This document shows, in pieces, positions 61,321-64,000 of a stretch of 64,000 nt of DNA (the first letter of the stretch is position 1; every line of letters starts with the position of its first letter). The stretch spans positions 1,240,001 to 1,304,000 of the forward strand of contig NZ_CP134706.1 of NCBI RefSeq assembly GCF_038246755.1, written 5' to 3'. The stretch comes from Micromonospora sp. FIMYZ51. GTDB taxonomy: Bacteria; Actinomycetota; Actinomycetes; Mycobacteriales; Micromonosporaceae. The notes below the pieces were generated by a model. The model saw nothing but the letters and a program-made list of their open reading frames with translations, was not told the origin of the DNA and searched no databases. The position numbers and the translations under genes are program-made.

Positions 61321-62589
61321 ATGCAGCCGGACGGCCCCTACCGGTACACCCACCTGCTGGGCGGGTCGCCGGTCGGCAAAGCATGGGCAGCTATCGACGA
61401 GCACGGCCGGCTGGTGACCGTGGCCGTCCTGGACACCCACGTCGCGGCCACGCCGGGCTGGCGCGAGGCCTTCGCCGCGATCGCCGACAACCTGGCCCAG
61501 ACCCCTGGCGGCGTACCCTTCATCTACGCGGACTTCGCAGCCGCGGCGCCCTGGGTGGCATACTCCGCCGAGGCCGGGCCGGCGGCGGAGAACCTCTTTC
61601 GCGCTCTCGGCGTCGCCTACCAGCCCGTGCCCTCCTCCGCCCCGCCGGTGTCCGGAGCACCAGTGTCGGGAACGCCGGTGTCCGGGTCTCCGGTCTCGGG
61701 GATTCCGCCGGTCTCCGGTGCGCCGGTCTCGGGGATGCCGCCGGTGTCCGGTGCGCCGGTCTCGGGGATGCCGCCGGTGTCCGGTGCGCCGCATCCGACG
61801 TCCGGGACGTCGCCAGGCGCGGCATATCCGCCCGCCGAGCAGCCGGCCGGGGGCAGCGACCCGTTCTCCTCTCCGGTGCGCCGCATAACGCCGTCAACGC
61901 CGCGGCGGCGGCCGACGGGCCGCTGGGCGGCGATCGCCGCCCTGGTGGTGGTGCTGCTCGTCGGCGTGGGTGCGGTGGTCGTCTGGGCGGGGGCCGACGA
62001 GGACGAGCCGTCCACCCCGGTCGCCGGTCCCAGTTCGCCGCTGCCGCCGGCCCCGACCTTCGCGCCGCAGTCGCCCGGCATCGAGCCACCTCAGGCGGGT
62101 GAGTGGCCGACCGAGTGGCCGAAATTCGCCCCCGGGGACCACGTGCGTACCCTGCCCAACTTGGAAGGGCTCGGCTTCGCGGTGAAGCTGCCGGCCGAGT
62201 GGGACTGTTCCCTCGGCGGCCGGGCGGAAGGCTACGTCAAGTACAACTGTGGGGCCGCGGAGCCGGGGAAGCCGCAGCTGGGCGGCGAGTTGATCGTGCG
62301 GGACTGCGCGGTGCCGTGTGACGAGGAGACCCAGGCCGCCATGCGGCAGGCCGAGGAGGCCTGGGGCCTGCAGTGGATGCGGGGTGGTGTGTTCGCCGCT
62401 TACGCCGACTCCAGCCGTTTGGAGATCGACGGTGAACGCCGGTACGGTCTCGCCGTTGTGGCGTACTGGCGCGGCGGAGAAAGTGGGCGAATCGACCATC
62501 AGCTCGTGCTGCGGATGACGTCGCCGATCGACGGTGCCGGCCGGCTGCGGCGGGTGGCCAACCACCTTCGCGACACGCTCATCTTCTGA
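61321..62589 (+). CDS. Membrane protein with pseudokinase-like N-terminus
   Basis: This is a 422-residue protein. Residues 7-40 (YRYTHLLGGSPVGKAWAAID, then LVTVAVLD) resemble the glycine-rich loop and beta-3 strand of Hanks-type kinases. The ATP-binding Lys is replaced by Ala and no C-lobe follows. A linker of PVSG repeats (about 109-157) and basic residues leads to one membrane segment (202-223) and an extracellular domain of about 150 residues with four cysteines (WDCSLGG, KYNCG, RDCAVPCDE). GAGGAG precedes the ATG. It is first of at least three co-directional genes. Confidence 0.7.
   Translation: MQPDGPYRYTHLLGGSPVGKAWAAIDEHGRLVTVAVLDTHVAATPGWREAFAAIADNLAQTPGGVPFIYADFAAAAPWVAYSAEAGPAAENLFRALGVAYQPVPSSAPPVSGAPVSGTPVSGSPVSGIPPVSGAPVSGMPPVSGAPVSGMPPVSGAPHPTSGTSPGAAYPPAEQPAGGSDPFSSPVRRITPSTPRRRPTGRWAAIAALVVVLLVGVGAVVVWAGADEDEPSTPVAGPSSPLPPAPTFAPQSPGIEPPQAGEWPTEWPKFAPGDHVRTLPNLEGLGFAVKLPAEWDCSLGGRAEGYVKYNCGAAEPGKPQLGGELIVRDCAVPCDEETQAAMRQAEEAWGLQWMRGGVFAAYADSSRLEIDGERRYGLAVVAYWRGGESGRIDHQLVLRMTSPIDGAGRLRRVANHLRDTLIF
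61645..61795 (+). repeat. In-gene PVSG-coding tandem repeat
   Basis: Units of GCGCCGGTCTCGGG and GATGCCGCCGGTGTCCGG encode PVSGxP repeats in the linker. Such arrays vary in copy number by slippage. Confidence 0.8.
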
Positions 62590-62621
62590 CCGCGTCACCC
62601 ATCGTTTCGCTGGAGATCGAC

Positions 62622-63908
62622 ATGGCCTGTGGTAGGCCCGCCGTGCTGCTCGGCGTACTCGCGGTGGTCGCCGTGACCGGCGTCCCGGCGGTGGCGGCCC
62701 CCACCTACGTTCGGCACGAGCCGGCCATCGCGGTGGCGGCACCCGCTGCGGTCTATCTGGAGGCGACGTACACCGGCTACCTCCGTGACCCGGCGGGCAG
62801 GCTGATCAGCCGGGATCCGGTGGTGGTGACCCGCAGGTGCAGCGGCGTCGTGGTGAGTCCCGAAGGCCACGCGGTGACCACCACCGTGTGCATCCAGCCG
62901 AGCGAGGAGGTCCTGCTGGTCAACGCGCTTTACCGGCACGGTCGGGAGCTGGTGCGGCAGAACGACCTCGCAGCCGAGGAACTGGACGGCTACGTCGGCG
63001 GGCTCCTCGACTCGTCCGTCTTTACCGGTCGGAGCCGCCGCAGCGCGCCCGAACACGCCCTGGTCGGCCAGCCGGACCCGGCGATCTCTGGTAACACTGC
63101 GGCACCGGCAATCGCGGCCACCGTCACGGCGACACTCGACCCGGTCGACGGCAACGCGGCACTGGTGAAGTTGGCCCGGCCCGGCCTGCCAGCGGTCGAG
63201 ATCACCGCCGCCGAGCTGAGCCCCGGTGTCCCGCTGCTGATCATGGGCTTCGGTCGGGAAGAGACGACCGACGGCTCGGAACGCTACCGGCTGCGGAACC
63301 GGGCGGTCGAGGTGATCGGACGCACCGGCACCAACCGGATCGGCGTCAGCGAACAGATCGGCCCCGACTCTCGGGGTGGCCCGGTGGTGAACGAGTCGGG
63401 TCGTCTTGTCGCGCTCCTGGACACCGACGGCTCCGCCGCCGGAGAGCCGATCCGTGACCTGATCACCGCCGCCACCCTCCGCCGGCTGCTCGAACAGGGC
63501 AACGTCGACGCCCGCCTCAGCGAGGTCGATCGGGCCTACCGGGCGGCCTTGGGCGAGTACTACCTCGGCCGGTACTCGCAGGCCGTAACCCGCTTCGACG
63601 CGGTGCTACGGCAGGACGCCGCGCACCCGGCGGCGCTGCGCTACCGCGAACGCGCGCAGGAACGCCTGGTGCGCGACGGCGACGCCACCGAGAACTCGGC
63701 AGAGTGGACGCTGTACCTGGTCTCCGCAGCCGGTGGAGCCGCCATCATCGCCGCCATCGGTCACCTGCCCCGCCTGCGCCAACGATCCGCCAGCGGCGCG
63801 GTGGCCGACGTGCCGGACACCGGGGAGTTGCGCCAGTCGATCCTCGCCAGCCCGGCGTCGGGGGCAGACCAGCCGGCACCGACGCCCGGAACGGCGGAGA
63901 CACGATGA
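62622..63908 (+). CDS. Membrane-anchored trypsin-like pseudoprotease with TPR
   Basis: This is a 428-residue exported protein. After a signal peptide (VLLGVLAVVAVTGVPAVAA) comes a trypsin-like double barrel (about 40-290). The His segment reads CSGVVVSPEGHAVTTTVC with no His at the catalytic place. The Asp position is Asn178 (GNAALVKL), and the Ser loop is PDSRGGPVV with Arg before GGP. A TPR-like pair (303-350), a membrane segment (about 363-381) and a cytosolic tail follow. It is predicted catalytically dead and may bind peptides. It begins 32 bp after the pseudokinase-like gene. Confidence 0.75.
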   Translation: MACGRPAVLLGVLAVVAVTGVPAVAAPTYVRHEPAIAVAAPAAVYLEATYTGYLRDPAGRLISRDPVVVTRRCSGVVVSPEGHAVTTTVCIQPSEEVLLVNALYRHGRELVRQNDLAAEELDGYVGGLLDSSVFTGRSRRSAPEHALVGQPDPAISGNTAAPAIAATVTATLDPVDGNAALVKLARPGLPAVEITAAELSPGVPLLIMGFGREETTDGSERYRLRNRAVEVIGRTGTNRIGVSEQIGPDSRGGPVVNESGRLVALLDTDGSAAGEPIRDLITAATLRRLLEQGNVDARLSEVDRAYRAALGEYYLGRYSQAVTRFDAVLRQDAAHPAALRYRERAQERLVRDGDATENSAEWTLYLVSAAGGAAIIAAIGHLPRLRQRSASGAVADVPDTGELRQSILASPASGADQPAPTPGTAETR

Positions 63909-64000
63909 CCTCGTACGGCACCAGTAGTGACCGTCCGTCGACGCGACCGGTGCCGCCGCCATCCGCGCCCGGCGGCGGCTGGGAGCCGGTGTCCGACGGA
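63905..64000 (+). CDS. Start of a third operon gene, cut by window end
   Basis: The ATG overlaps the stop of the pseudoprotease gene (ATGA). The 32 visible codons (MTSYGTSSDRPSTRPVPPPS, then APGGGWEPVSDG) are Pro/Ser-rich with no signal peptide, like the cytosolic N-terminus of a membrane or kinase-type protein. The family cannot be told from this fragment. Confidence 0.65.
   Translation, partial: MTSYGTSSDRPSTRPVPPPSAPGGGWEPVSDG

Follow-up and report, generated by a model that had tools for sequence, protein, structure and literature searches.

Two adjacent genes at the end of a 64,000-nucleotide stretch of the Micromonospora sp. FIMYZ51 genome encode membrane proteins built from enzyme folds that lack their catalytic residues. 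The stretch (hereafter the window) covers bases 1240001-1304000 of the single 7.05 Mb contig NZ_CP134706.1 (assembly GCF_038246755.1). By protein similarity, its nearest named relatives belong to Micromonospora. Gene A (61321-62589 in window numbering) starts with one lobe of a Ser/Thr kinase and gene B (62622-63908) carries a trypsin fold; both are open frames as first noted. With a probability slightly better than even (about 0.53), the two proteins would serve the neighbouring polysaccharide assembly as a transmembrane scaffold or regulator without catalysis. A role of the pair in building the polymer or controlling it is suggested because many relatives keep both parts together, often as one protein. 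A preliminary description of the locus had inferred a sensing or scaffolding complex; the polysaccharide context, an adjacent acyltransferase and the fusions go beyond it. If the proposed function holds, surface-polymer assembly would be steered by pseudoenzymes and not by the phosphorylation cycle of classical bacterial tyrosine (BY) kinases.

Gene A has the following organization.

61321..62589, forward strand: gene A, 422 residues, with kinase N-lobe, Pro-rich linker, transmembrane helix and PsbP-fold ectodomain (open frame, model and homologues)
61321..61626, forward strand: kinase N-lobe-like domain, residues 1-102, without C-lobe
61423..61425, forward strand: codon of Ala35, at the place of the β3 ATP-binding Lys (alignments)
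61627..61917, forward strand: Pro-rich linker with PVSG repeats (sequence; low predicted local distance difference test score, pLDDT, in the model)
61918..61986, forward strand: membrane helix of A, residues 200-222 (open frame, model)
62068..62586, forward strand: four-Cys ectodomain of A, residues 250-422, with PsbP-like fold

The kinase-like start without Lys or C-lobe that had been described for A is borne out. The domain has the fold of a Ser/Thr-kinase N-lobe and is homologous to full kinases. Ala35 occupies the place of the β3 Lys, and Ala is found there in all 40 N-lobes of one alignment (A3) and in 54 of 57 of another (A1; two gaps, one Val). Past residue ~102, where a Hanks-type kinase continues into its C-lobe, the linker and the membrane helix follow, and HRD and DFG patterns are absent from the frame. 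The kinase module thus consists of one lobe only. The Cys-containing extracellular domain, also noted earlier, adopts the PsbP fold in the model. Basic residues ahead of the membrane helix suggest that the N-terminus of A lies inside. Pfam returned no match for A and no kinase match for the 40 N-lobes, and neither A nor B matched a Wzz or BY-kinase domain of Pfam at E-values up to 1. NCBIfam matches were confined to hits below cut-off (TIGR03931 for A, Amuc_1098 for B, and models of HtrA and MamO for a fused relative).

Gene B follows on the same strand.

62622..63908, forward strand: gene B, 428 residues, with secreted pseudoprotease, helices resembling tetratricopeptide repeats (TPR), transmembrane helix and short tail (open frame, Pfam, model)
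62622..62699, forward strand: signal-peptide-like N-terminus of B (read from sequence)
62703..63509, forward strand: HtrA/DegS-type trypsin fold, residues 28-296 (structure comparison)
62838..62891, forward strand: Cys73...Cys90 pair (both Cys present in 81 of 81 family loci)
62886..62888, forward strand: Val89, at the catalytic His place (alignment with DegP-like proteases)
63153..63155, forward strand: Asn178, at the catalytic Asp place (same alignment)
63372..63374, forward strand: Arg251, at the catalytic Ser place, in DSRGGP (same alignment)
63522..63677, forward strand: TPR-like helices, residues 301-352 (model; designed-TPR chains matched, Pfam Fis1_TPR_C below cut-off only)
63699..63791, forward strand: C-terminal hydrophobic helix, residues 360-390, taken as a membrane helix (model)

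The model of B (mean pLDDT 85.9 from 45 sequences) shows the double barrel of trypsin, followed by helices of TPR type and a long helix at the C-terminus, as the preliminary description had proposed. The best fold matches are tied (MucD 21.2, MamO 21.0, DegP 20.8, DegS 20.7). MamO is not known to have a TPR or a half kinase. Compared with the HtrA/DegS (S1C) proteases, B has lost the His-Asp-Ser triad, with Val89, Asn178 and Arg251 in its stead, and TPR-like helices replace the PDZ domain: Pfam found no PDZ match in B, and past residue 296 the model contains only helices. The Cys73/Cys90 pair is at what we take to be the place of the chymotrypsin 42-58 disulfide. The sidedness of all parts of A and B is predicted from the sequence.

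One place ahead of the catalytic Ser position, residue 250 (63369-63371) is a Ser in 37 of 45 aligned homologues, which share a conserved shifted motif (S-[RH]-GG instead of S-GG). B might keep or regain catalysis through this displaced Ser, but that is highly improbable: in the same alignment (A2), 42 of the 45 homologues have one of V, L, Q, G, A and S at the His place, and 36 have Asn at the Asp place.

Within the Micromonosporaceae, the occurrence of B is patchy. Matches are present in 82 of 350 family genomes and 15 of 44 genera; 81 of the 82 positive genomes were analysed, and the weak match in G214 was left out. The N-lobe and the pseudoprotease share one open frame in 54 of the 81 B loci and are encoded by adjacent genes in another 8. 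The A and B homologues of Plantactinospora mayteni (P0124, P0017), with adjacent locus tags, are a named example. A lack of conserved linkage, which would have refuted the preliminary description, is thus mostly not seen, but in 19 of the 81 loci (three of them, L131, L145 and L188, at contig edges) no N-lobe was found, and N-lobe genes without B exist as well. Where the two are linked, the catalytic Ser is kept in none of 62 B copies and all three residues are lost in 56. In two related genomes (G022 and G311, one event), B is fused to the acyltransferase in a single frame of ~1190 residues. The G022 frame has 1191 residues with Pfam matches to Trypsin_2, Acyl_transf_3 and SGNH; the other is alike by gene calling.

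Catalytic loss goes along with a changed gene neighbourhood. Glycan markers were sought in the fetched stretch of each locus (about 20 kb, less on short contigs). At least one was found in 76 of the 81 loci, at least two classes in 66 and at least three genes in 54. The markers had been derived from the loci themselves; in 20 control regions, placed at round coordinates in genomes of the same genus, none occurred. The triad is kept in four family loci (L099, L117, L118, L189) and is not intact in the other 77, and the five loci without a glycan marker are these four and L190. Outside the family, 15 of the better matches were studied together with their gene neighbourhoods, two of them in the same genome. 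Three or more matches of like score (in G426, G521 and G458) are not among these, and most of the rest cover the HtrA core only. Fourteen of the 15 are intact and one is degenerate (L242), and none adjoins a glycan marker, even at a threshold of 1e-6. Altogether, glycan genes adjoin 76 of 78 degenerate and none of 18 intact homologues (Fisher 1.4e-17, a descriptive value since the rows are related). In the ten neighbours of three intact loci, Pfam found a permease, a dehydrogenase, a transporter, a histidine kinase and others, and no glycan-assembly family. Orthologues with intact residues had been named as evidence against the preliminary proposal. Homologues with an intact triad do exist, at 18 loci, but these are remote relatives; no N-lobe was seen in the sequence fetched around them, and no glycan genes adjoin them.

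As a natural series, the homologues lead from an active protease to a pseudoenzyme. In the tree of B, the four intact rows form one side of a branch. L092, L093 and L094, which keep His and Asp and have lost Ser, lie outside the groups of paired and fused proteins. The tree comes from a quick search, and its long branches meet at the root. The fused copy L151 (G262) has His and Asp at the catalytic places and Arg at the Ser place, within a group mostly without them; this pattern may be a reversal or the product of recombination. The dead folds of the relatives are maintained under purifying selection. For the N-lobe, trypsin and PsbP domains of 17 pairs of relatives, compared in 35 ways without the genes of the window, the ratio of nonsynonymous to synonymous substitutions (dN/dS, Nei-Gojobori) ranges from 0 to 0.43. 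Decay as pseudogenes is rejected for such genes, as no comparison exceeds 0.43.

Since the pair often lies at one chromosomal site, its glycan neighbours could be coincidental. A and B would then mark a recombination-prone site beside the hut genes at which glycan clusters arrive independently. Hut genes adjoin 64 of the 73 fetched N-lobe loci, and differing glycan clusters occupy the same place. However, hut genes are missing from 20 degenerate B loci, and of these 19 still hold a glycan marker and 15 hold two classes (15 and 12 of 16 after removal of four loci on short contigs). Mere hitch-hiking at one site is disfavoured by these loci. The fusion of B to the acyltransferase and the absence of glycan genes beside all 18 intact homologues also speak against coincidence, which we regard as quite unlikely.

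Several observations weigh against a scaffold or regulator of polysaccharide assembly. Gene order alone cannot tell an assembly scaffold from a sensor or regulator. Of the 350 family genomes, 268 lack B, and matches to A (37 of 61 genomes) outnumber those to B (17 of 61); the pair is thus not obligatory. Eleven N-lobe loci without B, a chosen subset, were fetched, and their glycan context is weaker, with at least three glycan genes in four of them. Fewer than two marker classes occur in 15 of the 81 B loci, and the degenerate L190 and L242 have no marker. The markers are less sensitive in other families, because they were taken from these loci. Furthermore, a Wzz-like co-polymerase is also encoded in 10 of the 81 loci. 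A further Wzz-like gene over cut-off is located elsewhere in the FIMYZ51 genome, and a general role of the pair as a Wzz substitute is accordingly unsupported.

The N-lobe is combined with several outer modules. In the 73 fetched N-lobe loci it is joined to the pseudoprotease (54), the PsbP fold (15) or a third domain (4); hut genes adjoin 53, 7 and 4 of these, respectively. The N-lobe of the window is up to 87% identical to that of the fused protein P0147, whereas B is only 36-39% identical to the listed fused pseudoproteases (P0022, P0024-P0026). This difference suggests that outer modules were exchanged between N-lobe proteins. The N-lobe tree requires eight ectodomain changes, only a few of them forced by starred branches; it has few columns and is weakly resolved, so that module swapping is no more than suggestive. 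At L083:4249-5661, in a locus that also holds a B gene, the third ectodomain is carried by a Pro-rich protein that has no N-lobe, which indicates that outer modules occur on other cytoplasmic parts too.

Tentatively, and with somewhat less than even odds, a wider reading may be put forward. From an actinobacterial membrane protease of HtrA type and a single lobe of a Ser/Thr kinase, the Micromonosporaceae would have built a transmembrane switch or scaffold of surface-polysaccharide assembly that contains no active enzyme, with a constant cytoplasmic half kinase and exchangeable outer modules (pseudoprotease, PsbP fold, third domain). In Micromonospora it would be kept at a fixed chromosomal site beside interchangeable polysaccharide clusters. 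In the KIND domain of Spir, too, one kinase lobe has been put to use for binding, but it is a C-lobe and eukaryotic. If the wider reading is true, the half-kinase lobe would be the bacterial N-lobe counterpart of this module.

The main rival to a polysaccharide scaffold is a receptor of kinase signalling. In such a receptor, the N-lobe would recruit or modulate a true Ser/Thr kinase upon binding of an outer ligand, the tail of B would be a multi-site substrate read by FHA proteins and polysaccharide would be only one of the outputs. The tails of the relatives hint at this and are its main support. In 12 of the 21 database proteins most like B, a D-x-T-V-[VI]-L-P-like motif occurs at least twice after the membrane helix. 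Under a rough crop, which left three tails of length 0, the 21 tails contain 35 motifs of the [DE]xT[VIL][VIL]L type, compared with 0.11 expected by shuffling. The motif presumably resembles an FHA-type phosphothreonine ligand (pT-x-x-hydrophobic). The homology of the N-lobe to full kinases, the four FHA matches in the FIMYZ51 genome and the three alternative ectodomains on one N-lobe are also in accordance with a receptor. On the other hand, the motif is missing from the B of the window and from nine of the 21 tails (including the three cropped to nothing), none of the FHA matches is near the locus, and the kinase/FHA reading of the motif is our assumption. PknB-type back-to-back docking of the N-lobe is unsupported, because the PknA residue seven before the Lys aligns to a gap. 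We take this residue to be at the place of the PknB dimer Leu33, a position for which an L33D mutant of PknB exists. Taken together, a kinase-signalling receptor is unlikely.

For a scaffold or regulator of polysaccharide assembly, the following mechanism can be envisaged. The outer domains of B and A may bind an intermediate of the glycan or else enzymes of its assembly, for example the neighbouring acyltransferase, the polymerase or the flippase, and the N-lobe may offer a docking face to a cytoplasmic partner. The pair would hold together or switch the assembly complex, as the Myxococcus pseudokinase EcpK and its co-polymerase have been proposed to do. Where relatives carry DxTVVLP tails, a further layer of control may come from phosphorylation or from docking of FHA proteins.

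The kinds of protein involved are already known; their combination is unusual. EssB/YukC of type VII secretion has, like A, a cytoplasmic pseudokinase, a membrane helix and an outer domain, but it is a secretion component with a whole kinase fold. No type VII secretion genes are present among the ten downstream and six upstream proteins scanned; the TIGR03931 model that matched A below cut-off is type VII-associated. EcpK of the exopolysaccharide system (PMC12004946) resembles the A/B pair as a dead kinase-derived protein of a Wzx/Wzy pathway with a proposed scaffold function. It differs from A in its bacterial-tyrosine-kinase fold, which is not a Hanks N-lobe, and its partner is a polysaccharide co-polymerase. 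The actinobacterial pseudokinases ActPs1-3 and MviN are Hanks-derived, have lost catalytic motifs and are often membrane-linked, but retain further kinase parts outside the N-lobe, namely HRD, DFG, the activation loop and the G-helix, according to the sections seen of a 2025 review of bacterial pseudokinases (PMC12599244). The same sections list seven annotated families and mention none without a C-lobe. The open-access literature gave no description of the A/B pair, of a bacterial pseudokinase consisting of an N-lobe only or of a pseudoprotease at polysaccharide loci of actinobacteria; the search covered few subscription papers.

MamO of the magnetosome is a close parallel to B (PMC4794232): an HtrA-derived, non-catalytic trypsin fold with a C-terminal membrane domain, encoded in a biosynthesis cluster. 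In contrast to B, it keeps His and Asp, its Ser is replaced by Thr, and a di-His motif binds metal. B could likewise activate or sequester another protease or bind metal. This is very unlikely, as no protease was found among the ten downstream proteins scanned and the only one upstream is an M20-family hydrolase of the hut group.

The third gene had been described as Pro-rich, tightly linked and cut by the window. The linkage holds, since the stop codon of B overlaps the start of the next gene by 4 bp (ATGA at 63905-63908). The identity does not: with the sequence past 64000 included, the protein has 708 residues and matches Acyl_transf_3 and SGNH in Pfam, and a merely Pro-rich protein is rejected.

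63905..64000, forward strand: start of the acyltransferase-3 (AT3) and SGNH gene, which runs to ~66031 in window numbering (frame, sequence past the window, Pfam)

Among the ten downstream proteins, Pfam further identified two GT4 glycosyltransferases, DUF1800, DUF1501, a Bac_transf sugar transferase and a LytR-CpsA-Psr protein. Polymerase-like and flippase-like proteins of the same cluster have no Pfam match and are assigned by likeness only. Judged by these assignments, the genes downstream of B are a Wzx/Wzy-type surface-polysaccharide cluster, its Wzy- and Wzx-like members being putative. Divergently upstream lie an RpiR-type regulator and a hut-type group (urocanase, aromatic amino acid lyase, two amidohydrolases and the M20-family protein). 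The glycan clusters vary by species and include GT2, GT4, Wzy_C, Polysacc_synt, Wzz, pyruvyltransferase and AT3.

The DUF1800-DUF1501 pair (L008:11259-13786) is located inside the polysaccharide cluster; DUF1800 is found in 19 and DUF1501 in 16 of the 81 B loci. Both are reported to occur next to chitin synthase genes of bacteria, with a suggested functional link (PMC5122149), which agrees with a role in glycan assembly.

Some N-lobe and trypsin-type relatives are found in other surroundings. L109-L111 (G012, G008, G036) contain A paralogues with N-lobe and PsbP fold at a non-hut locus, their N-lobe genes lying at about 8.8-10.6 kb. Those of L110 and L111 adjoin a protein in whose L110 copy Pfam identifies a β-helix and an AAA ATPase domain. 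Three apparent short N-lobe proteins (P0193, P0179 and P0219, one of them with a sugar transferase) were not used; their text reads as frame-shifted, and they are probably broken or misassembled copies. In another family, a 347-codon frame (L244:8907-9947, the same gene as L197; G575) encodes an N-lobe and a transmembrane helix, has Ala at the β3 Lys place and has no glycan markers nearby. The frame of the degenerate trypsin-type homologue L242:8562-12055 (G584), likewise without glycan markers, overlaps that of a full Ser/Thr kinase.

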